Origin: Salegentibacter sp. 24 | GTDB lineage: Bacteria > Bacteroidota > Bacteroidia > Flavobacteriales > Flavobacteriaceae | Direction of reading: 5' to 3' | DNA length: 64,000 nucleotides | Assembly: GCF_004362395.1 (NCBI RefSeq) | Contig: NZ_SNWE01000006.1 | Location: 62,001-126,000, forward strand | Shown here: piece by piece, positions 4,822-47,019 of the stretch | Numbering within the stretch: position 1 is the stretch's first letter | Layout of the letters: every line of letters begins with the position of its first letter | Position numbers and translations under genes: made by a program | The notes under the pieces: model-generated | Database searches by the model: none | What the model was told of the DNA's origin: nothing | Seen by the model: the letters and a program-made list of their open reading frames with translations, nothing else

Positions 4822-5859
4822 ATGGCTCGAAAAAAAATGAATTTTCTTGACAAATACCTCACCCTTTGGATTTTCCTCGCAATGTTTATTGGCGTTGCCA
4901 TTGGATATTTCGCTCCCCAGAGTGCGGATTTTATTGGTTCTTACCGTGTTGGCTCAACGAACATTCCTATTGCAATTGGTTTAATTTTAATGATGTACCC
5001 ACCACTTGCGAAAGTAAATTATAAATACCTCCCCCGGGTTTTTAATAATATAAAAATCCTTAGCATCTCCTTATTGCTCAATTGGATCATTGGGCCTGTT
5101 CTTATGTTTTTTCTGGCAATAATTTTTCTTCAGGATCATCCGGAATATATGGTAGGGCTAATTCTAATTGGTCTCGCTCGTTGTATCGCTATGGTTTTGG
5201 TGTGGAACGACCTAGCCCAGGGAAGTAGCGAATACGGTGCTGGTTTAGTTGCTTTAAACAGTATTTTTCAGGTGTTTTTCTATAGCTTTTATGCATGGAT
5301 TTTTATTAGCGTTTTACCGCCGTATTTTGGTTTCCAGGGAGCCATTGTTGATATTTCTATAGGCACGATTGCAGAAAGTGTTGCGATTTACCTGGGAATT
5401 CCTTTTCTGGCAGGTTTTCTAAGTAGGTTTTTCCTGGTTAAAGCTAAAGGGGAGGTATGGTATAAAACAAAATTCCTTCCGACAATTTCTCCCCTTACTC
5501 TTATGGCACTTTTATTTACAATTTTGGTAATGTTTAGTCTAAAAGGGGAAACCGTAGTAGAGATCCCTTTAGATGTAATGCTTATTGCAGTTCCTTTAGT
5601 TGTTTATTTTATCCTTATGTTTTTTATTAGTTTTTTCTTATCGAAATTTTTTGGGGCCGCCTATAAACAAAATGCCTCTATTTCTTTCACGGCAACCGGA
5701 AATAATTTTGAACTCGCAATTGCTGTAGCAATTGCTGTTTTCGGAATTGATAGCGGACAGGCTTTTGCAGGGGTGATTGGGCCATTAGTAGAGGTCCCTG
5801 TTTTAATCGGGTTGGTCAGTGTCGCCTTTTGGTTAAAGCAAAAATATTACCCTCAATAA
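4822..5859 (+). CDS. acr3: Arsenite efflux transporter, Acr3 family
   Basis: A 345-residue, ten-helix inner-membrane permease that exports arsenite (or antimonite). The family signature [16 protein letters not shown] with its conserved Cys is intact, as are the [20 protein letters not shown] and [13 protein letters not shown] segments. Length is normal. It follows arsR by 49 bp and is followed by the ArsO-like gene after only 11 bp, which supports a three-gene ars operon. No arsC arsenate reductase is present here. Confidence 0.95.
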
Positions 5860-5870
5860 AAATTAGAATA

Positions 5871-6926
5871 ATGGTTAACTTTTATGATGTAATTATAATT
5901 GGTGGTGGGCAAAGCGGACTTGCTTGCGCCTATTATTTAAGGCGAACCGGACTGAAATATCTAATTCTTGACGACCAAAAAACCTGTGGGGGGGCATGGT
6001 TAAACACCTGGGATTCCCTTAGGCTTTTCTCCCCAGCCGATCATTCTTCGCTTCCAGGTTGGTTGATGCCAAAATCAGAAGAAGGGTTTCCACCTAAAGG
6101 TCATGTAATTAATTATTTATGCAACTATGAAAAGCGATATGAGTTCCCTATAAAACGTCCTGTTCTGGTAGAAAATTTGGCAAAAGAATCAGGTACTTTT
6201 CATCTTAAAACATCAGCGGGAGGTTTTTCGGCAAAAGCTGTGATTTCCGCTACTGGCACCTGGAAAACACCCTTGATTCCAAAGATTAAAGGAATTGAGA
6301 TTTTCAAAGGAAAACAACTTCATTCAGCTCATTATAGAAATCCAAATGGTCTTAAAGATAAAAATGTACTCATTGTGGGTGAAGGTAATTCTGGTGCTCA
6401 AATCTTAGCCGAAGTTTCTAAGGTAACCAATACAGGCTGGGCTGTTTTAAAGGATCCTGATTATCTGCCAGATAAGGTTGATGGAAGGGAGCTTTTTAAT
6501 ATAGCTACGGCAAAATATAAAGCTGAAAAAGAAGGAAAGAAATTTAATCCTGAAAAATATAATCTTGGTAAGATAGTGATGGTTCCAAGTGTAAAAGAAG
6601 CCCGAAAAAGGGGAGTGCTGGAAAGCAGGGGCAGTTTTAAAGAATTTTTCGAAGATGGAGTAATTTGGGGTGACGGAACCAAAGAGAAATTTGATGTCGT
6701 AATATGGTGCACCGGGTTTCATTATGCTACAAATCATTTAAATAATATTGTAAAACCTGATTCCCAGGGCAAAATCAAAACCCAGGGAACTAAAGCCAAA
6801 CATACAAATGGACTTTGGTTAGTAGGTTATGGCGGTTGGACTGGTTATGCTTCAGCAACTTTGATTGGAGTTGGGCGAAGTGCTAGAACCACTATTAAAG
6901 AAATTAGTGATTTTCTTGAAGAATAA
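5871..6926 (+). CDS. arsO: ArsO-like flavin-dependent monooxygenase
   Basis: A 351-residue two-dinucleotide-binding flavoprotein. The FAD loop is IIIGGGQSGLACAYYL at the N-terminus, the NADPH loop is VGEGNSGAQILAE near residue 165, and VIWCTGFHY follows near residue 280. ATG 5871 sits directly before the FAD strand; the longer reading would overlap acr3. ArsO-type proteins occur in ars operons and are proposed to be flavin monooxygenases, but their reaction is not well established. Position 11 bp after acr3 supports the arsenic link. Confidence 0.8.
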   Translation: MVNFYDVIIIGGGQSGLACAYYLRRTGLKYLILDDQKTCGGAWLNTWDSLRLFSPADHSSLPGWLMPKSEEGFPPKGHVINYLCNYEKRYEFPIKRPVLVENLAKESGTFHLKTSAGGFSAKAVISATGTWKTPLIPKIKGIEIFKGKQLHSAHYRNPNGLKDKNVLIVGEGNSGAQILAEVSKVTNTGWAVLKDPDYLPDKVDGRELFNIATAKYKAEKEGKKFNPEKYNLGKIVMVPSVKEARKRGVLESRGSFKEFFEDGVIWGDGTKEKFDVVIWCTGFHYATNHLNNIVKPDSQGKIKTQGTKAKHTNGLWLVGYGGWTGYASATLIGVGRSARTTIKEISDFLEE

Positions 6927-7105
6927 ATCATCCAGCTTAGAACAATAAATTCCAAAGTAAAATCCTTTCTAAAAATTTTAAGACCTCGGCGATATTTCTA
7001 TTGATATATGTTAGGTTTTTCCGTTAAATGCATACTAAAATTCTAAAATTACTGGTGTTTAGCTACTCATTAATCTAGTTTTGAATGAAAATAAAAAATA
7101 TAGAT

Positions 7106-7852
7106 ATGAGTATTAAAGGAAAGACAATAATTATTACCGGGGCTTCAAGTGGTATTGGAGAAGCTACCGCAAAAAAATTATCTCAGGAAGGTGCAAATGT
7201 AGTATTAAGTGCACGCCGAAAGGAGCGGTTAAATGCTTTGAAAGATGAAATTGAAAAAAACGGAGGAATGGCTTTGGTTGTTCCGGGCGATGTCACTAAA
7301 AAAGAAGATTTTAAAAACATTATATCAGCAACCTTAGAGAAATTTGGAAGTATTGATGGAATTATTAATAATGCAGGATTAATGCCGTTGTCATATGTTA
7401 AAAATCTTCATACTGATGAATGGGATAAGATGATAGATGTGAATATTAAAGGCGTAACCAATGGGGTAGCGGCCGTTCTTCCAACGATGATGGAACAAAA
7501 AAGTGGGCACATTATCAACATATCTTCAAGTGCGGGACATAAGTATTACCCAGGCGGAGCAGTCTATTGCGCTACTAAGGCCGCAGTAAAAATGTTTAGC
7601 GAGGGACTTAGAGCTGAATTAGCTCCTCATTTCGGAATTAATGTAACCTCAATTGATCCAGGTTTTGTATCAACAGAATTGACCGATACCATTACCGATG
7701 AGCAGATTAAAAAGGATATGGAACCAATGTTTAAAGAGCTGACCCCATTGCAAGCGCAGGATATTGCGGATGCAATTTACTATTCTTTAAGCCAGCCTAA
7801 ACGAGCAAATATCAACGATGTTTATATTATGCCCACTGATCAAGAACAATAG
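7106..7852 (+). CDS. SDR family NAD(P)-dependent oxidoreductase (YdfG-like)
   Basis: A 248-residue classical SDR: TGASSGIGEATA cofactor loop, NNAGLMP, NISSSAG, catalytic YCATK, and PGFVSTEL. It resembles the broad-specificity 3-hydroxy acid / serine dehydrogenase group. ATG 7106 (MSIKGKTIIITG) gives the normal family N-terminus; ATG 7085 would add seven residues and cannot be excluded. It has its own 180-bp leader after the ars genes and its own terminator, so it is probably a separate unit. Confidence 0.85.
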   Translation: MSIKGKTIIITGASSGIGEATAKKLSQEGANVVLSARRKERLNALKDEIEKNGGMALVVPGDVTKKEDFKNIISATLEKFGSIDGIINNAGLMPLSYVKNLHTDEWDKMIDVNIKGVTNGVAAVLPTMMEQKSGHIINISSSAGHKYYPGGAVYCATKAAVKMFSEGLRAELAPHFGINVTSIDPGFVSTELTDTITDEQIKKDMEPMFKELTPLQAQDIADAIYYSLSQPKRANINDVYIMPTDQEQ

Positions 7853-7871
7853 ACTTTTTTAAAGCAATTGC

Positions 7872-7912
7872 AAAGAGGTTGAATGGAGTTTATCCAGGCA
7901 ACCTCTTTTTTG
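7872..7912 (+). terminator. Rho-independent terminator
   Basis: AAAGAGGTTG pairs with CAACCTCTTT (10 bp) and continues into a T run. It ends the SDR unit; the convergent reductase gene stops 45 bp further on. Confidence 0.8.
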
Positions 7913-7956
7913 TAGTATTCACGAGTTTAAATCTTATCTCTCTTGTATAATTTTAA

Positions 7957-8952
7957 TTAAACTTCAACCACCATTTTCCCAGTATTTTTACCTTCAAAAA
8001 GATCTAAAAATGCCTGCGGGGTTTCTTCAAAACCTTTTATTATGGTTTCATCATATTTTAATTTTCCATCCTTTAACCATCCTGCCAACTCTTTAATGGC
8101 ACTTTCAAATTCTTCAACATGATTTCGAACCAAAAAACCTTGCATTAATGCACTTTTTTTAATTAAAATTCCTTCCAGTCTTGGACCCGTAGGTATTTCC
8201 TTTTCATTATAAATTGAGATAGCACCGCAATTAATAATCCGGGCAAAACGATTAATATTCATCATAACCGCGTCCAGGGTTTCACCACCAACATTATCAA
8301 AGTACACATCTACTCCGTCGGGGCAGTTTTTAGCGATAGCTTCCTGCATATTATCAGTAGTTTTGTAATTAATACCTTCATCGTATCCAAATTTTTCTTT
8401 GATATGATTAATTTTATTATCGGTTCCCGCGATTCCAATTACCCTACAACCCTTAATTTTTCCAATTTGTCCTGCTATACTTCCGACAGCACCAGCCGCC
8501 CCAGAAACTACAAGCGTTTCATTGTTTTTAGGTTTTCCAATATGTTTTAATGCCAAGTATGCCGTTAAGCCAGTCAAGCCTAAAATACCAAGATAAGCAC
8601 TGGGTTTAGCCAGGTTGGTGTCAATTTTATTTAAATTCTCTCCTTTATTGGTTTGCAAAAGTTTCCATTCCAACATTCCACTCACAAAATCTCCTTCCTT
8701 GAAATTATCATGATTACTTTTAATTACTTCAGCAACCACCATAGATTCTAATGGCTTATTCAATTTAAATGGAGGGATATAGGATTCCTCATCTCGCATT
8801 CTACCTCGTAAATACGGATCCACTGAAATATACTTAGTGGCTAGCAAAATTTCACCATTTTTAGGAGTTGGTTCATCAATCTTGGTTATTTCGAAATCTA
8901 AAAGACTGGGTTTTCCTGTTGGGCGGTTTTTTAACAATATACTTTTATTCAT
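7957..8952 (-). CDS. NADP-dependent oxidoreductase, CurA / leukotriene-B4-dehydrogenase type
   Basis: A 331-residue zinc-less medium-chain dehydrogenase that reduces activated C=C bonds of enals and enones with NADPH. The N-terminal GroES-like part contains SVDPYLRGRM, the Rossmann part VSGAAGAVGSIAGQIGK and FDNVGGETLD. Length is exactly that of the YncB/CurA group. It faces the upstream SDR convergently. Together with the neighbouring SDRs and ArsO-like enzyme it may help detoxify reactive carbonyls, but this is an inference from context only. Confidence 0.9.
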   Translation of the reverse strand: MNKSILLKNRPTGKPSLLDFEITKIDEPTPKNGEILLATKYISVDPYLRGRMRDEESYIPPFKLNKPLESMVVAEVIKSNHDNFKEGDFVSGMLEWKLLQTNKGENLNKIDTNLAKPSAYLGILGLTGLTAYLALKHIGKPKNNETLVVSGAAGAVGSIAGQIGKIKGCRVIGIAGTDNKINHIKEKFGYDEGINYKTTDNMQEAIAKNCPDGVDVYFDNVGGETLDAVMMNINRFARIINCGAISIYNEKEIPTGPRLEGILIKKSALMQGFLVRNHVEEFESAIKELAGWLKDGKLKYDETIIKGFEETPQAFLDLFEGKNTGKMVVEV

Positions 8953-9246
8953 TTTTCAGTATTATTTAATTAGTATTTTGGAAGCCAAAAATATAAAGAC
9001 TGGTTCCGAGAAATTCACTTCCCGATTAATGTACTGTTAAGTTGAAAACTCTGCAACTCAGAATTATTAATTTAAACTTAAAGTCAATATTTGGAAATAA
9101 GAATGAAGTTCTTATATCTGAAAAAATATTTTGAAGGCAGGAAAGCAATTATTTAATTTCTTTTATCTGGAAATGTTATGATTTCTTAAAGTAAAGACTA
9201 ATAGTCTATAATACACCGTAACTTTGCCCATATAAAAGCACAAAAT

Positions 9247-39945: not shown

Positions 39946-40662
39946 TCAATTCTTACTTAGGGTATTTAGAATATCGGTCTGTTGACCTTCTTCAATGTTA
40001 AAGCCCGGTTTACCTTTTCTGGGAAATAAATATGTAAACTCTTCATCAAAAGCACTCCAACTCCCTGCTAGACCGAAATCATCATTCGACCTGTCCATTT
40101 TTGGACGTTTAAAAGTATTTAAATCAGAATTATATGGGGAGCCTTCCGCATCTTCCCCCGGAAATAACATACCGTCATTGATCTCTGAATAAATTACCAC
40201 TGTAGCTCCGCCATTACCAGGTAAATCAAATACTTTTAGACCGAAATCTTTTAAGACTCCTTTTCTTTCGGTAATATCTTTTGTTTTAAAATTATCTTTA
40301 AAATTGTTACGTGGATGGGCGAAAATAGGCGCACCACCGGCATCTTCAGAAATAGTTTTTAGATCGGCATAAGCATCTTTTAAAATTCCGTCGCAGGTGA
40401 TTAAAATACCTTTAATTTTATAACCATCCGTAAGTAATTTCTTTACCGCATCTTTGGTAGAATCTTCTACCACATCTATTAGTAAAATATCTTGTCTATT
40501 AATATGTCTTAGAGCGTAACCCTGATTGAATATACCATCCTTTTCTTCACCTTTAATTATAAAAGTATCGGGAATTAATTTTAAAAATTTACCGCTTTCA
40601 CCTTTTTCAACAAATTCAGCACTTTGGCTGTGCAGTACTTCCATTTTATCAACAGTCTTCAT
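39946..40662 (-). CDS. Degenerate metallo-beta-lactamase-fold protein
   Basis: A 238-residue protein. The fold pattern is visible (ILLIDVVEDS, then ILITCDGILKDAYADLKTI, GGAPIFAHP, FDLPGNGGATVVIYSE, GMLFPGEDAEG) but the HxHxDH motif is replaced by TCDGILKDA, so the metal site is lost. It is probably a pseudoenzyme or a binding protein. ATG 40662 is used; a TTG two codons upstream is less likely. It follows the phosphopantetheinyl transferase gene by 73 bp, same strand, and could be read from the polyketide operon or its own promoter. Confidence 0.65.
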   Translation of the reverse strand: MKTVDKMEVLHSQSAEFVEKGESGKFLKLIPDTFIIKGEEKDGIFNQGYALRHINRQDILLIDVVEDSTKDAVKKLLTDGYKIKGILITCDGILKDAYADLKTISEDAGGAPIFAHPRNNFKDNFKTKDITERKGVLKDFGLKVFDLPGNGGATVVIYSEINDGMLFPGEDAEGSPYNSDLNTFKRPKMDRSNDDFGLAGSWSAFDEEFTYLFPRKGKPGFNIEEGQQTDILNTLSKN

Positions 40663-40735
40663 AATCAAAATCGTTTTAAATTAGTTGTTTCAAGATACAA
40701 ATAAGGCGAGGCTTTTACAATGCTGGAATCGGGTT

Positions 40736-41299
40736 TTAGGACATATTTAACGAGACAGCATAAGCAGAATAAGCTCCGTGGTGAGAAAGACTAAATGGAA
40801 TTCTCAGATTATCACCATGGTAGGTTATAAAAGGTATTCCCTCCTTATCTTTACTAATGTTAAGGGATTCTAATGTAATATTAAGTTGGTTGGAGATTTT
40901 ATGGAGAAGATTGGAATTGGAATTATTACCTTCTGAAATCAATGAAAATTCAGTATTGGCTGTAAATGAGTGGATTTTATCGGAAGTTAAAACTGAAATG
41001 GTCTTTATAAGTTCATTATCAAAATTGACAACTCCCATAGACCTTTTGGAATTAAAATCAATTTGGTGGCAGATAAATCGTGTCGGATTATAAAAACGGA
41101 CCAATTTATATTTTCGCTGCACAGCTTTATAAACGGCCTCTTTCATGCTCCAAAATAACCAAATATTAACTTCAGGATTTGCCGAATTCAATATAAACCT
41201 TTGCTCCTTCTCTGTAAATACTTTTTGAAGAAAACCCCGTCTTGACCAGTTACTCTGAAACTTAGTTAAATTTAAGTCTATAATATCATTGCCTATCAT
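40736..41299 (-). CDS. 4'-phosphopantetheinyl transferase
   Basis: A 187-residue Sfp/AcpS-superfamily enzyme that attaches the 4'-phosphopantetheine arm to carrier proteins. Motifs: GNDIIDL near the start (Asp5, Asp8) and WSMKEAVYK (50-58). It overlaps the ACP gene by 4 bp and probably activates that ACP. Last gene of the coupled operon. Confidence 0.9.
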   Translation of the reverse strand: MIGNDIIDLNLTKFQSNWSRRGFLQKVFTEKEQRFILNSANPEVNIWLFWSMKEAVYKAVQRKYKLVRFYNPTRFICHQIDFNSKRSMGVVNFDNELIKTISVLTSDKIHSFTANTEFSLISEGNNSNSNLLHKISNQLNITLESLNISKDKEGIPFITYHGDNLRIPFSLSHHGAYSAYAVSLNMS

Positions 41300-41550
41300 G
41301 TTTTTCCTAGTTTCTGTTCAATGATATTCTTAGCATTGCCCACAGTAAGCATTCCACTCATAGATTCGTTATCTATTTCTATATTAAATTCGTCTTCTAC
41401 ATCTAGAATAACATCGACCAGGTTAGCTGAGTTCACTTCAAGATCCTTTATAAAATCCGTATCCTCATTGAAATTATCTAGACCTTCTTTTCTCTGAGTA
41501 TAAGGCGTCACAATCTTTTTAATGGAATCAAGTATTTTTGTATCATTCAT
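41296..41550 (-). CDS. Acyl carrier protein of the polyketide operon
   Basis: An 84-residue four-helix ACP. The attachment Ser41 is in DLEVNSANLVD (NSA instead of the usual DSL), followed by VEDEFNIEID. It overlaps the transferase gene and follows the ketosynthase gene by 10 bp. It likely carries acyl chains for the pathway's ketosynthase, dehydratase and reductase. Confidence 0.9.
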   Translation of the reverse strand: MNDTKILDSIKKIVTPYTQRKEGLDNFNEDTDFIKDLEVNSANLVDVILDVEDEFNIEIDNESMSGMLTVGNAKNIIEQKLGKT

Positions 41551-41560
41551 TTTTTTAAAA

Positions 41561-42823
41561 TTATAATTTCTTAAAAATCACTACCGCATTTACATCTCCG
41601 AATCCAAAACTCGACTTAGCGATAATCTTCACAGATTTCTCTATAGTTTTCCTTGGAACTTTATCTTCGGAAATCAGATTAGAAATCTGAGGGTTTAAAT
41701 CTTCGGAATTCACATTACCGAAGATAAAATTTTTATCCAGTTGGAGCACACTTGCTACGCATTCTATACTTCCTGATGCAGCCAGACAGTGCCCTGTCAT
41801 TCCTTTTAAAGAATTTATATATGGAAAATCTTTTCGTTTAAGTGCTATTTTCCAATTCTCGATTTCCAAGGCATCCTTTGTAGTAGCGGTAAGGTGACCA
41901 TTAATTACCTCTATTTCTTCTTTAGAAATTCCTGAACATTCAATAGCTTCTTTGATACAACGAATAACAGCTTCACTATTGGCAGCGGTCATACTACCAC
42001 CACCTCGTTGCCCACCACTATTGACTGCTCCTCCTAAAACTTCGGCATAAATTTTTGCACCCCGCTCCTTAGCAGCTTCATATTCTTCCAGCACCAGTGC
42101 TCCAGCCCCACTTGCAGGGACGAAACCACAGGCCGTTGCACTCATCGGTCGAGAAGCTATAGTGGGATTCTTATTATATTTTGCCGGTAAAATGCGCATG
42201 GCATCAAACCCGCCCCAAATATATGGTCCATGATCACTGCAGCTTCCAATTAGCATTCGTTTTGCTTTACCGGCAACAATTCTATCAGCACCCATTAATA
42301 AGGCTTCGGTTCCCGTAGTGCATGCTGAAGAATTAGTGGTCACCTGGTTTCCGCAACCAAGAATTCCACCCAGATAGGCGCTAATGCCACTGGCCATAGT
42401 TTGCATTACACTTGTACTTCCCAAACGTCTTGTCTTCCCTTGTTCAATAAGGTGAATAGCTTCCCTAAATTTATCCACCCCTAAAATTCCGGTGCCAAAA
42501 ATTATCCCACTATCCCATTGGGGTGTTTCGCTTTCTTCAATTTTAAGTCCGGCGTCTTTCCAGGCATCGGTACCTGCCATTACTCCATAAATTAAACCGC
42601 TGGAATTTAAACCTCTAAGTTGAAGTGCTGTGAAATATTCAGCAATTTTTTTTTCAGAAACTTCAGGTTTTCCCGCAATCTGGCAACTGAATTTCAAACG
42701 CTGCAATTCCTCTTGAAACCGAATCCCGCTTTTACCCATTCGAAGGGCTTCTTCAAAGTTGCTCAAACCTACCGCATTTGGCGCAACAACTCCCATTCCA
42801 GTTATAACCACTCGTTTATTCAT
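41561..42823 (-). CDS. Beta-ketoacyl-ACP synthase (KAS II type)
   Basis: A 420-residue thiolase-fold condensing enzyme. Catalytic Cys168 in NSSACTTGTEAL, His310 in INGHLTATTKD and His345 in GMTGHCLAASG form the Cys-His-His triad; Lys340 is in place. Chain extension with malonyl-ACP is expected. It is separate from general fatty-acid genes and lies inside the operon with a type III PKS. Confidence 0.9.
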   Translation of the reverse strand: MNKRVVITGMGVVAPNAVGLSNFEEALRMGKSGIRFQEELQRLKFSCQIAGKPEVSEKKIAEYFTALQLRGLNSSGLIYGVMAGTDAWKDAGLKIEESETPQWDSGIIFGTGILGVDKFREAIHLIEQGKTRRLGSTSVMQTMASGISAYLGGILGCGNQVTTNSSACTTGTEALLMGADRIVAGKAKRMLIGSCSDHGPYIWGGFDAMRILPAKYNKNPTIASRPMSATACGFVPASGAGALVLEEYEAAKERGAKIYAEVLGGAVNSGGQRGGGSMTAANSEAVIRCIKEAIECSGISKEEIEVINGHLTATTKDALEIENWKIALKRKDFPYINSLKGMTGHCLAASGSIECVASVLQLDKNFIFGNVNSEDLNPQISNLISEDKVPRKTIEKSVKIIAKSSFGFGDVNAVVIFKKL

Positions 42824-42833
42824 CCAAGAAATT

Positions 42834-43280
42834 CTAAACAGATTTGCCTTTCACCATTCCCGCGATCTTACCGCGGCAAATTAATTTGTCTGATTTATCA
42901 TACATTCTTACTTCACATTTCAATTTATTAAACCTAAAAAAAAGCTTTTCAGAAACTACCCTAACCGTATCTCCAGGAAAAACTGGAAGGTAAAAATCTA
43001 CTTCCGAAGAACTTAATCCTAATTTTATATCCAATGGCTCATTTTTCTCCTCCTGAAGAAGAAAAATACCCAGACATACTACACCAATCTGCGCCATACA
43101 TTCCGTTAAAATAACTCCAGGAGTTACCGGATTGTTTTTAAAATGTCCTTTATAGAAAAAGGAATCTATAGGAAAAGTATAAAAACCTTCCGCAGATTTT
43201 TCATCAATATTCACCAATTTATCTACAAAAAGAAATGGAACTGAATACGGAAGCTTCTCAAGTATTTCTGTATAATCCAA
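42834..43280 (-). CDS. 3-hydroxyacyl-ACP dehydratase, FabZ-like
   Basis: A 148-residue hot-dog-fold protein. His46 in FYKGHFKNNPVTPG and Glu60 in ILTECMAQ are the FabZ catalytic pair. It dehydrates 3-hydroxyacyl-ACP to enoyl-ACP. Between reductase (7 bp) and ketosynthase (10 bp) genes of the operon. Confidence 0.88.
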   Translation of the reverse strand: MDYTEILEKLPYSVPFLFVDKLVNIDEKSAEGFYTFPIDSFFYKGHFKNNPVTPGVILTECMAQIGVVCLGIFLLQEEKNEPLDIKLGLSSSEVDFYLPVFPGDTVRVVSEKLFFRFNKLKCEVRMYDKSDKLICRGKIAGMVKGKSV

Positions 43281-43287
43281 AATTCGC

Positions 43288-44082
43288 CTATTTTAAATGT
43301 TCACCTCCATTGACCGGAATTATAGTACCGGTAATCCAGCCAGCTTCATCTTTACTCAAAAGGTAAACCACATTGGCAACATCATTAGGAACCGTAAGCC
43401 GTTTAAATGGATTATGTTTTAGCGCGTGTACCCTTAAAGTTTCGTTGCCGGGTATCATTTGAAAAGACCGAGTAACTGTAACTCCAGCCTGAATACAATT
43501 GGCACGGATACCGTGAGGTGCAAATTCCAGGGCAATACTTCTGGTTATTGCTTCTAGTGCAACCTTGGCCGCAGAAACTGCTGCGTAATTGGCCCAGGCT
43601 TTTTTATTGCCTTCACTGGTGAAGGAAATAATTCTAGCGTCTTTGGCAAATAATTTAGCATTGAAAATAGTTTTTACCCAATCGTAGAGGCTAATGGCCA
43701 TAGCATCTATGGTGAGCTGGAAATCTACATTTTCAAGATTCGGTCCCTCCCCGGTCATCGGTTTTAAATTTCCTTTAGCTAAACTATGTACCAGAGTCCT
43801 TACTTTGCCTTCCTTTCCCAGAATTTTATGAATTTGGTCGATCAGAATTTGTCTTTTTTCGGCATTTGTTGCATCAATATTAAAACTTTCAAAATGGACA
43901 TCCTGCTCTCTGATATCTTCAAAAGCTTCTTCAATTTCAGCTATATCAGCACGCCTGTCACGATGAATAATAATTATATTCATTCCGTGATGTGCCAGTT
44001 TCCTGGCTGTAGCAAACCCAAGGCCACTACTCCCTCCTAAAATAATTGCCCAGTAGTTTTTGTCTTTAAATTCGGTTACCAT
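43288..44082 (-). CDS. SDR reductase, FabL/FabI-like (Y-x6-K)
   Basis: A 264-residue SDR. The cofactor loop is LGGSSGLGFAT; the catalytic pair is Tyr166 and Lys173 in NYAAVSAAK, spacing Y-x6-K as in enoyl-ACP reductases FabI and FabL rather than YxxxK of FabG. It most likely saturates the enoyl-ACP. A ketoreductase for the same cycle is not in the operon. Overlaps the type III PKS gene by 7 bp. Confidence 0.8.
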   Translation of the reverse strand: MVTEFKDKNYWAIILGGSSGLGFATARKLAHHGMNIIIIHRDRRADIAEIEEAFEDIREQDVHFESFNIDATNAEKRQILIDQIHKILGKEGKVRTLVHSLAKGNLKPMTGEGPNLENVDFQLTIDAMAISLYDWVKTIFNAKLFAKDARIISFTSEGNKKAWANYAAVSAAKVALEAITRSIALEFAPHGIRANCIQAGVTVTRSFQMIPGNETLRVHALKHNPFKRLTVPNDVANVVYLLSKDEAGWITGTIIPVNGGEHLK

Positions 44083-45128
44083 TCTAATAAAATTCTTTGT
44101 GCCGAAAAACCCGGACCAAAACTTAGCATTAAGCCCTGTTCTCCAGTTTTTGGCTGTTTTTTAATAAATTCCTCTAGTACGTATAAAACTGTCACACTGC
44201 TCATGTTCCCATATTTCCGCAGTACTTCACGAGTTTCGTCTATATTCTTCCCTAAGTTACCAAAAAGATCTTCAACAGTTTGTACAATTTTCTTACCTCC
44301 TGGATGAAAAATCAGATGATTAAGCCTTTCTATATTTGAATCCAGTTTTTGTAAAAATGGATGTACAATCTCGGGAAAATGCGTTGCGATAGTTTGCGGT
44401 ACTGCTTCATTCAGGATCATTTTAAGTCCATGATTAGTGAGATCAAAACCCATTAAATGAGTAGCCTCATAAAAGTGATACATTTCTTCACCTACAATTC
44501 TTGGACCTTGGGCTTGATCTTCTGAAGAAAGCAAAACACAGGCGGCGCCATCGCCAAAAATAGCAGCGCTTACCATATTAGCCATAGAAAAATCATCTAG
44601 CTGAAATGTTGAAGTAGGACTTTCAACCGCGATTACAGCAGCACGTTTTCCTGGATTGGCTTTAAGAAAATTTGCTGCATATATAATTCCGGAAATTCCG
44701 GCCGCACAACCCATTTCTGTAACCGGCAAACGGGTTATATCTTTTCGCATTTCCAATGAATTGATTAAATAGGCATCCAAGGAGGGAATCATAATTCCTG
44801 TGCAACTCACGGTGATAATAAAATCTATTGAAGTTGCATTCCATTCCATACTCTTTAGAGCTTTTTGCAATACGTTCTTCCCAAGTTTTTTTACCTCCCT
44901 GACATAAATATTATTCTTCTGTTCAAAGGAACTCGCTGTGAATACTTCCTTAGGATCCATAATGGAATAGCGTTTATCTACATCTGCTCCCTCAAAGATT
45001 TTTAAAACCTTTCTACGGAATCGATCATCTTGCTTTCCCAGCCAATCCTCCACAAATGGCAGAATATCTTTGGTCTCACTGGAATAATCAGGCAGTTCTT
45101 TTTCTACACTTACAATTTTTACACTCAT
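44076..45128 (-). CDS. Type III polyketide synthase (chalcone/stilbene synthase family)
   Basis: A 350-residue homodimeric condensing enzyme (from ATG 45128). Catalytic Cys141 in TEMGCAAGISG, His275 in LIFHPGGKKIV and Asn308 in YGNMSSVTVLY form the Cys-His-Asn triad. It extends an acyl starter with malonyl units and cyclises to a pyrone or alkylresorcinol. The ATG overlaps the methyltransferase stop (ATGA). The starter is probably made by the downstream fatty-acid-like module; this is inference. Confidence 0.92.
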   Translation of the reverse strand: MSVKIVSVEKELPDYSSETKDILPFVEDWLGKQDDRFRRKVLKIFEGADVDKRYSIMDPKEVFTASSFEQKNNIYVREVKKLGKNVLQKALKSMEWNATSIDFIITVSCTGIMIPSLDAYLINSLEMRKDITRLPVTEMGCAAGISGIIYAANFLKANPGKRAAVIAVESPTSTFQLDDFSMANMVSAAIFGDGAACVLLSSEDQAQGPRIVGEEMYHFYEATHLMGFDLTNHGLKMILNEAVPQTIATHFPEIVHPFLQKLDSNIERLNHLIFHPGGKKIVQTVEDLFGNLGKNIDETREVLRKYGNMSSVTVLYVLEEFIKKQPKTGEQGLMLSFGPGFSAQRILLEW

Positions 45129-45844
45129 ATTTTTTCTTTCTGAATTATCCATTGATAGCGAAATGCCCATTTCCAGGTAATTCTATGACTAGTCCGCGGA
45201 ATTCTTTCAGCAAAATACTGTAGTTCCTCCTTTTTGAAACCGCGTAGAATAGAAATTAAACCATCTTTTCGAGCAATCTCATTATTGATAAACACCGCAC
45301 AAAAAGCTTGAAATAATCTATAAGCAAATTTTGATCGGTGCAAATCATTTATAATCACTCCTAATTTAGATTGATCATTAAATTTTTTCAATAAGGCTAA
45401 AATCTCTCTGTCCTTAAAATGATGAAGCGTTAGGGTACATAAAATAATATCACATCTTAAGCTTTTAAAATCCTCGCTAAGCATATCTATTTCATGAAAT
45501 TCTATCTCTTGAAAGTCAGTAGACATTGTTTTACCAAGGGCAATGGCATGGGAGTTGGCATCAATACCGGTAAGTTTAAGTTTATACCCCTGTTTTCTTC
45601 CCCAATCTGCAATCTCCCGCAAAACGCTTCCATTACCACAACCTACATCAACAATATGGAGCTGTTGATTATACGAAACTTTGGTAACAATATTTTTAAT
45701 TCCTTCCAGGGTAATTTTATTTCCCCCTAGCCATTTATTAATCTTATCCAGATCACGCAAAGTTTTATCCAATTCACTTCCTTGCAGATCAAAATCATCC
45801 ATAATTTCAACCGCTTTGATTCTTTTTGAGGTATCTATACTCAT
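45125..45844 (-). CDS. Class I SAM-dependent methyltransferase
   Basis: A 239-residue Rossmann methyltransferase. The SAM motif VDVGCGNGS lies at 65-73, then GIDAN and ILCTLTLHHF. It overlaps both neighbours by 4 bp (ATGA). In type III PKS clusters such enzymes methylate the phenolic product; likely the same here. Confidence 0.88.
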   Translation of the reverse strand: MSIDTSKRIKAVEIMDDFDLQGSELDKTLRDLDKINKWLGGNKITLEGIKNIVTKVSYNQQLHIVDVGCGNGSVLREIADWGRKQGYKLKLTGIDANSHAIALGKTMSTDFQEIEFHEIDMLSEDFKSLRCDIILCTLTLHHFKDREILALLKKFNDQSKLGVIINDLHRSKFAYRLFQAFCAVFINNEIARKDGLISILRGFKKEELQYFAERIPRTSHRITWKWAFRYQWIIQKEKI

Positions 45845-46968
45845 ATAATTGGTTGTCCGTGGGTTCTATTAATAATTTTCTCTAATAAGTATGGAAAATT
45901 TTTGACCAAATTTTGTGAAGTGGTAGCTAGAAGAGGATTTATTAGTATCTTCTGGAGTATTCTTCCTGTTCTTAATCGGCTACGGAATTGGGAGTTCCAG
46001 TTCTCTCTATATTGATTTTCCAGGTTTTCCCGATTTAAATTATTTCCTTGTAAATTACTCAGGACAGCTTCTGAGGCTATTTTTCCAGAATGAATTGCCA
46101 TAGCCATTCCGTTGCCACATAAGGGATGAATTAATCCAGCAGCATCTCCCAACATTAAAACGTGTTCTTTAATAATTGATTTTTCCTCAAATGAAATCTG
46201 AGCGATACTCAGATCATTTTCAAAAACAGGTTTTGCTTTTATAAAAAACCCCTTTAGATATGGATTGTTAAATAAAATTTGTTTTTTGAATTCTTTGGTA
46301 TTCTTATACTTTTTGAAACTTTTATAAGAAACCATATAACAGGCATTCACCAAACCAGTTTCTATTTTTGATAAACCACAGTATCCGCCTTCAAAATTAT
46401 GCAGGGCTACTAAATTATCCGGAAATTCAGGATTCTCGTAATGTCCTTTTAAAGCTAGCCATGAGGATTTTTGCTTTTCAAACTCCCGTCCGAGACTTTT
46501 ATCAAGATTAGCGCGTTTTCCAAATGCTCCTAAAACTATTGCAGTTTTAAATTCTTTTCCAGAAGAAAGTTTTAGTCTGAATTCATCATTTTCAAAATTG
46601 ATATTTTCCACTGATCCCAAGAGAATTTCCGTGCCATATTCTTGCGCTTTCTTAAAGAGAAAGTTATCCAAATTATAACGGCTTATTCCCATTCCGCCAA
46701 GTTCCAACTTGGTTTCAATAGTCTTTGCATTCTGAGTGCTGTAGAGCAATCTTTGAATATTTATGGGTTTTAAGCTGCCCTTGAGGTCTATATCTAGAAA
46801 ATTGAAATAAGGGAGCACTTCGTTGGAAAGATACTCCCCACATACTTTATGTCTTGGAAAAGCCTTTTTTTCAATTAGCAAAACCTGCTGGCCTTCCCGG
46901 GAAAGATGGATTGCAGCAGTTAATCCTGCCAGGCCTCCACCTACAATAATCACTTTAAAGTCTGCCAT
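45841..46968 (-). CDS. FAD-dependent oxidoreductase (UbiH / geranylgeranyl-reductase type)
   Basis: A 375-residue flavoprotein: FAD loop IIVGGGLAGLTAAIHL, VCGEYLSNEV motif, and the second FAD site VLMLGDAAGLIHPLCGNGMAMAIHSG. It could hydroxylate the phenolic ring or act on the side chain. First gene of the operon. A terminator of the upstream OmpA-like gene lies only 27 bp before its start, so promoter placement is tight. Confidence 0.88.
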   Translation of the reverse strand: MADFKVIIVGGGLAGLTAAIHLSREGQQVLLIEKKAFPRHKVCGEYLSNEVLPYFNFLDIDLKGSLKPINIQRLLYSTQNAKTIETKLELGGMGISRYNLDNFLFKKAQEYGTEILLGSVENINFENDEFRLKLSSGKEFKTAIVLGAFGKRANLDKSLGREFEKQKSSWLALKGHYENPEFPDNLVALHNFEGGYCGLSKIETGLVNACYMVSYKSFKKYKNTKEFKKQILFNNPYLKGFFIKAKPVFENDLSIAQISFEEKSIIKEHVLMLGDAAGLIHPLCGNGMAMAIHSGKIASEAVLSNLQGNNLNRENLENQYRENWNSQFRSRLRTGRILQKILINPLLATTSQNLVKNFPYLLEKIINRTHGQPII

Positions 46969-46995: not shown

Positions 46996-47019
46996 AAATC
47001 CCGGAAAATTCCGGGATTT
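46996..47019 (-). terminator. Terminator between OmpA-like gene and polyketide operon
   Basis: AAATCCCGG pairs with CCGGGATTT, with seven T following on the minus strand. It ends the OmpA-like transcript 27 bp before the operon's first ATG. Confidence 0.85.

Follow-up and report, generated by a model that had tools for sequence, protein, structure and literature searches.

A conserved type III polyketide synthase operon of Flavobacteriaceae carries its own type II acyl genes and probably forms a dedicated lipid-polyketide pathway

In Flavobacteriaceae, clusters with a type III polyketide synthase (T3PKS) rank among the more common biosynthetic gene clusters reported, yet our searches of the open-access literature turned up no assigned product for them. 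In two surveys of the family they make up 9% and 10.74% of all biosynthetic gene clusters, in passages that do not describe their gene content (PMC7440613, PMC10734526). What do such genes make, and from where does the synthase draw its starter? We addressed this question for an operon in a 64,000-nucleotide stretch of DNA from Salegentibacter sp. 24 (the whole stretch is hereafter the window; the genome is 4.15 Mb and the operon lies on its contig 6), in which a T3PKS is encoded alongside a type II set of fatty-acid genes, a methyltransferase and a flavoenzyme. Our analysis makes it probable that the operon is a dedicated lipid-polyketide pathway, using its own acyl supply to produce a methylated, oxidised alkyl phenol or pyrone. 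In the open reading frame (ORF) list of the window the operon consists of eight minus-strand ORFs at 40736-46968:

45841-46968, minus strand: flavin adenine dinucleotide (FAD)-dependent oxidoreductase, like geranylgeranyl reductases and flavin monooxygenases (Pfam FAD_binding_3 and others; NCBIfam; fold)
45125-45844, minus strand: S-adenosylmethionine methyltransferase (MT) (Pfam Methyltransf_25/31; NCBIfam PRK06202)
44076-45170, minus strand: T3PKS with Cys155/His289/Asn322, Cys123 and Phe242 (Pfam Chal_sti_synt_N/C)
43288-44082, minus strand: short-chain dehydrogenase/reductase (SDR) resembling FabL-type enoyl reductases, Tyr166-x6-Lys173, optional (FabL the best NCBIfam model; PDB 3oic)
42834-43280, minus strand: FabZ-like hotdog dehydratase (DH), His46/Glu60, TTG start (Pfam FabA-like domain; NCBIfam fabZ)
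41561-42823, minus strand: beta-ketoacyl-acyl carrier protein synthase (KAS), FabB/FabF-like, Cys168/His310/His345 (Pfam, NCBIfam and alignment)
41296-41550, minus strand: acyl carrier protein (ACP), Ser41 (Pfam PP-binding)
40736-41299, minus strand: 4'-phosphopantetheinyl transferase (PPTase), optional (Pfam ACPS)

From the FAD gene through to the PPTase gene the intergenic gaps are -4, -46, -7, 7, 10, 10 and -4 nucleotides. The coordinates, gene families and gaps thus bear out the eight-gene operon proposed in a sequence-only reading of the window, and Pfam assigns the families that it had named. Its numbering of the catalytic residues stands for KAS (to which Lys340 can be added), ACP and DH; its T3PKS triad Cys141/His275/Asn308 becomes Cys155/His289/Asn322 in the 364-residue ORF, because the earlier count began at an internal methionine (MSVKI), near which several relatives start. 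With its chalcone/stilbene synthase-fold domains and this Cys-His-Asn triad, invariant in 14 aligned sequences, the protein has the hallmarks of a T3PKS, and it is the only one in the genome, three further matches reaching at most 31 bits.

The operon is a real conserved unit, carried by about a third of the sampled family genomes. In a sample of 249 genomes the T3PKS (search at 1e-30) matched in 86, one of which (G072) has a different T3PKS of 34% identity, leaving 85 native cases. All 85 have the flavoenzyme (1e-50) and 84 have the operon-type KAS (below 1e-140), and neither was found in sampled family genomes without a native T3PKS; the SDR (1e-50) is present in 76 of the 85 and in one other genome, G031. 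The sequence-only reading had called for a search for the same gene order across Flavobacteriaceae. In a scan of named genomes, drawn from the best 80 of at least 548 relatives, the order FAD-MT-T3PKS-(SDR)-DH-KAS-ACP-(PPTase) was found at all 71 loci with full flanks (nine loci shorter than 18 kb were excluded). Six genes are constant, while the SDR is encoded at 54 loci and missing at 17 and the PPTase was detected in 31, so that the proposed pairing of the T3PKS with type II acyl genes in a single operon holds in a refined form, as a six-gene core with two optional members. Among the hosts are members of Salegentibacter, Christiangramia, Gillisia, Zobellia (with Z. uliginosa and Z. barbeyronii), Maribacter, Arenibacter and Aquimarina, and several Flavobacterium species; the closest named T3PKSs among the matches listed are from Salegentibacter (85-86% identity), which agrees with the family to which the sequence-only reading pointed. 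Forty family loci were fetched, of which 39 are native. FAD, MT, T3PKS, DH, KAS and ACP lie together at 38 of the native loci; the exception, G190, has DH-KAS-ACP elsewhere in its genome. G144, from a hand-picked set of further odd cases (G144, G138 and G118), is split in the same way, DH-KAS-ACP staying together and the FAD-MT-T3PKS triad still being in the genome. Across 82 dereplicated loci, taken from 89 with all seven genes needed for a distance comparison, T3PKS distances correlated with those of KAS (r=0.80), FAD (0.78), MT (0.68) and DH (0.61), with the nearby central-metabolism E1 gene at 0.51 and ACP at 0.48.

Do these acyl genes serve the T3PKS, or do KAS, ACP, FabZ and SDR belong to general fatty-acid synthesis and merely lie beside it? 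They are homologues of FabF, FabZ, FabL and ACP, and in G031 the SDR is kept while the operon is absent, as general synthesis would have it. Against this, the genome holds a separate housekeeping set, made up of fabF paired with acpP, a fused lpxC/fabZ, fabG, one FabI-like gene and a second gene of the ACPS family. FabF, ACP, LpxC/FabZ and FabG from this set all pass their NCBIfam cut-offs (597/494, 139/92, 751/465 and 345/298 bits), whereas the operon proteins fall far short of the equivalog cut-offs (KAS 258 of 494, FabZ 69.2 of 155, ACP 39 of 70 bits) and lack the canonical neighbours of housekeeping type II fatty acid synthase (FAS) genes. The operon ACP also has a divergent motif, DLEVNSANLVD with Ser41, where the housekeeping ACP has DLGADSLDTVE. 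The FabI-like protein lies under every FabI cut-off (best 134 bits), and all 14 models that it matched at 1e-20 are enoyl-ACP reductases; the second PPTase matched no NCBIfam model at 1e-20, and a third, weak FabA-domain match in the genome scores 24.3 bits. Moreover, no sampled genome that lacks the T3PKS has a KAS of the close type, which refutes general synthesis for KAS in this sample, and in the split genomes G190 and G144 DH-KAS-ACP remain together with the triad present. We therefore give a general fatty-acid role hardly any credence. Because separate housekeeping fabF-acpP, lpxC/fabZ, fabG, FabI-like and PPTase genes exist, the KAS, ACP and FabZ-like proteins look dedicated to the T3PKS operon on sequence grounds; with the housekeeping copies distinct, the general role that the sequence-only reading had named as its own disproof did not emerge.

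The fold of the synthase points to enzymes that handle acyl chains. Its model (mean pLDDT, a predicted local confidence score, of 84) is closest to M. tuberculosis Pks11 (template modelling score 0.89) and then to CylI of the cylindrocyclophane pathway, at 28% and 24% identity over the fold alignments, while the ranking by sequence among solved structures is Pks11, THNS, CylI. Pks11, the closest solved structure on both counts, is described in its PDB entry title as making methyl-branched alkylpyrones, and CylI as using acyl and beta-ketoacyl substrates, as thioesters, to give a resorcinol product. The gene settings differ: that of Pks11 is unlike the operon's, and the enzymes upstream of CylI are a fatty acyl ligase and a type I polyketide synthase. 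Phe242, shared by all 14 clade members in the alignment, is replaced in 15 outgroup sequences by Trp (14) or Tyr (one, L073), and aligns with Trp in Pks11, Tyr in THNS and Leu in CylI. As these three enzymes make different ring types, Phe242 leaves the ring type undecided. As a marker of resorcinol versus pyrone, the ArsB Trp281 rule (PMC6274091) gave no call either, the five alignments examined not including the ArsC against which that residue would be placed. The outgroup sequence L073 is the 34% identical T3PKS of G072 (8134-9234 of that locus), which has Cys and Tyr at THNS-like positions and none of the operon genes associated with it.

Several observations weigh against an acyl-primed, dedicated pathway, and the first of them concern the synthase itself. 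Its identity to T3PKSs found outside its own clade does not exceed about 35%. In a small midpoint-rooted tree of 21 clade and 15 chosen outgroup sequences the clade forms a single group (support 0.86) set off by a long stem, and function and starter specificity are therefore not transferable from relatives. Among NCBIfam models the synthase scores best with DpgA, an enzyme that uses malonyl units alone, at 162.8 bits against a cut-off of 425. In alignment with THNS, the invariant Cys123 (motif VSCTGIMIPS) falls on that enzyme's SCTG cysteine, presumably Cys106; an equivalent cysteine is also found in L073, L085 and L086, the other 12 of 15 outgroup sequences having Ser or Thr. In sequence searches with both the single protein and the profile, THNS, which is malonyl-primed, ranks second among distinct PDB proteins. 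A malonyl-primed synthase of the THNS, DpgA or PhlD kind, making a small polyphenol to which a separate chain from the acyl module is joined afterwards, would account for these features. We nonetheless consider this unlikely, since the conserved core contains no acyltransferase, ligase or ester synthase for the joining step, the closest folds are Pks11 and CylI with THNS only at row 31 of the fold ranking, and the DpgB/C/D-type neighbours that a DpgA-type pathway requires are not in the operon. Assignment as DpgA itself (3,5-dihydroxyphenylacetyl-CoA synthase) was rejected on the missed cut-off.

The remaining contrary points concern the acyl module. None of the eight ORFs is a ketoreductase, as the sequence-only reading had recognised in suggesting that FabG is shared or that the SDR has a dual role; sharing of FabG stands as its explanation, and the dual role is unlikely, the SDR being FabL-like and optional. 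Its best NCBIfam model is FabL (133.4 bits, short of the cut-off of 328 and hence FabL-like only), its best PDB match is the enoyl-ACP reductase 3oic, and Tyr166 and Lys173, invariant in 12 of 12 aligned sequences, form the Tyr-x6-Lys motif of FabI and FabL. By motif and best matches it resembles a FabL-type enoyl reductase, and a ketoreductase function was set aside on the same grounds. The SDR is also dispensable, missing at the 17 loci above and from nine of 85 genomes, and survives alone in the congener G031; it may therefore serve something else. In G138 the locus reads FAD-MT-T3PKS-SDR, with DH, KAS and ACP not found there and no close KAS genome-wide; this gap is not a contig end, because the T3PKS begins about 10 kb into the contig. 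At L093, the locus of G118, no DH was detected. Finally, distances of the ACP, a short protein, follow E1 (r=0.65) more closely than T3PKS (the 0.48 above) or DH (0.37).

We infer the following pathway from the observed gene content, residues, linkage and conservation, with the starter, chain, ring type, tailoring order and product all conditional. A PPTase, from the operon or shared, would activate the operon ACP, and the operon KAS would elongate a chain on that ACP. Housekeeping FabG would reduce the beta-keto group, a borrowed ketoreduction, after which the FabZ-like enzyme would dehydrate and the FabL-like SDR carry out enoyl reduction. Housekeeping FabI probably stands in where the SDR is missing; alternatively, such strains would make an unsaturated chain. 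The T3PKS would then take the acyl chain from the operon ACP, add malonyl units and close a resorcinol or pyrone ring. An alternative that eases the want of a ketoreductase is that beta-ketoacyl-ACP passes from KAS straight to the T3PKS, DH and SDR acting in earlier cycles only. CylI, a top fold match, was solved with a beta-ketoacyl-SNAC (N-acetylcysteamine) substrate, and germicidin synthase accepts acetoacetyl-CoA and hexanoyl-ACP (PMC6274091). However, DH is as constant as KAS (71 of 71 loci, with L093 the case lacking a detectable DH), which implies that a borrowed ketoreductase takes part in one reductive cycle or more, and we judge such a direct hand-over improbable.

In the acyl-ACP-primed pathway that we favour, ring methylation by MT and oxidation by the flavoenzyme would follow and lead to an alkyl phenol or pyrone that bears methyl and hydroxyl groups and resembles a hydroquinone or quinone. 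MT, encoded at all 71 loci, scores 143.8 bits against a cut-off of 243 with NCBIfam PRK06202, and the flavoenzyme 128.8 against 158.8 with GG-red-SF. The flavoenzyme model (pLDDT 85) finds flavin halogenases and monooxygenases as its fold matches. A flavin-dependent halogenase was rejected despite these top matches: the WxWxIP motif of that class is lacking, the only two tryptophans lying in KSSWLAL and ENWNSQF with no WxW. Ring oxidation is its likely role. The sequence-only reading had proposed a methylated, oxidised phenolic lipid with a bespoke acyl starter; that outline holds, with a phenolic lipid as one candidate product and Cys123 leaving the choice of starter undecided.

How does this arrangement compare with known systems? 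The triad of T3PKS, MT and oxidoreductase is known, as is a T3PKS with a dedicated FAS in type I form; the type II combination was not found in our searches of the open-access literature. The Streptomyces srs genes, by description, encode a T3PKS, a methyltransferase and a hydroxylase, in contrast to the operon without an acyl module. Azotobacter Ars uses a type I FAS. The operon does not follow the Ars-type alkylresorcinol plan of a type I FAS partner and paired T3PKSs, but has discrete KAS, DH, SDR and ACP proteins, one T3PKS, and MT and flavoenzyme in addition. The likeness to Azotobacter ArsABCD lies in a T3PKS with its own FAS, the acyl chain being handed over from an ACP domain; ArsB/C and the germicidin synthase Gcs are T3PKSs that take acyl-ACP (both from PMC6274091). 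The tailoring genes follow the hierridin plan of cyanobacteria, in which hidABC encode a T3PKS, a methyltransferase and an oxidoreductase (PMC8086630). Planctomycete enzymes of the same three kinds, encoded in an MT-oxidoreductase-T3PKS operon, gave alkylresorcinols in a heterologous host, and one added MT-oxidoreductase pair led to a probably C-methylated derivative, the role of the oxidoreductase being unsettled there (PMC10896814). Such small operons with the three genes adjacent, as they are here, are widespread in aquatic bacteria according to the same sources (PMC8086630, PMC10896814). Our operon, compared with HidA/B/C by gene plan rather than sequence, differs in its order FAD-MT-T3PKS and its extra acyl-module genes. 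Likewise, at two of 11 other T3PKS loci examined (L085 and L086) a homologous triad of T3PKS, MT and FAD genes is present and acyl genes are not. Because of these triads and those of the hierridin and planctomycete operons, the operon may be read, by analogy, as the known T3PKS-MT-flavoenzyme triad with a private acyl supply. A Leeuwenhoekiella T3PKS cluster, which may or may not be this operon, had no MIBiG match (PMC9859067). In searches of the open-access literature we found no description of the operon's gene set with a product, and hence no characterised identical cluster of the kind that would have overturned the sequence-only reading.

Among the other T3PKS loci, L187 (CP031730.1, labelled Stenotrophomonas rhizophila) and L189 (Lysinibacillus fusiformis pMGMM7) have nearly the same order around a T3PKS and isoprenylcysteine-methyltransferase pair; the Stenotrophomonas plasmid record CP031730.1 may be mislabelled or contaminated. 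At L091, in a genome that is 86% complete (G150), T3PKS and flavoenzyme are each in two pieces (5745-8663), through sequencing error or decay of the copy.

Is the operon long established? At 57 of the 71 loci it adjoins OmpA-like and lipoprotein genes like those of the window, and at 51 the E1 gene. Among 395 genomes of the phylum, 33 match the T3PKS with E values under 1e-150, 30 of them from the family itself and three from other families of the class, the next-best match being at 7.5e-63 and 34% identity; the operon also occurs in three genomes from other orders of the class (G325, G378 and G486), the first two without the SDR. The OmpA-like neighbour favours long vertical descent, though 14 loci differ and carriers in other orders exist. 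A plasmid origin was rejected, KAS having no match at 1e-80 in a plasmid collection. Twelve T3PKS-less genomes were searched for E1, of which ten were positive and six sites were fetched. At one, in G031 of the window's own genus (L191), the site reads OmpA-SDR-ORF-aconitase, the operon being absent and the SDR alone remaining (8157-8948, 76-77% identical); at the other five none of the operon genes lies within the approximately 16 kb taken. Recurring downstream neighbours (among them a small membrane protein and TerC-like and YceI-like proteins, named by reading) are neither biosynthetic nor constant.

Two further features flank the operon in the window. Downstream, a 240-residue ORF (39946-40668, minus strand) follows directly, is found at 17 of the 71 named loci and has no Pfam or NCBIfam match at 0.001. 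Upstream lies one more element:

46996-47019, minus strand: terminator-like hairpin in the spacer that separates the operon from the OmpA-like gene upstream (10-pair stem, T-rich tail; a consensus match only)

It sits 27 nucleotides ahead of the flavoenzyme start codon, with little space for a separate promoter. The operon may be driven by read-through or by a promoter within the OmpA gene.

Mean pairwise identities over the 82 loci are 75% for T3PKS, 72% for E1, 67% for KAS, 56% each for DH and ACP, 52% for FAD and 45% for MT. The synthase is therefore tightly held, about as conserved as E1, while the tailoring enzymes drift. Conservation this strong points to more than an occasional antibiotic function. 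A bolder proposal, which we offer as speculative and rather doubtful, is that the operon makes not an antibiotic but a membrane lipid or alkyl (hydro)quinone that is peculiar to the family, close to housekeeping in importance and new to lipid chemistry, drawing on a private acyl-ACP pool at one long-inherited chromosomal site. With a six-gene core and its own type II acyl supply, an anonymous cluster class of the Flavobacteriaceae becomes a testable pathway, and the operon provides a clean case for a T3PKS recruiting a dedicated acyl carrier.

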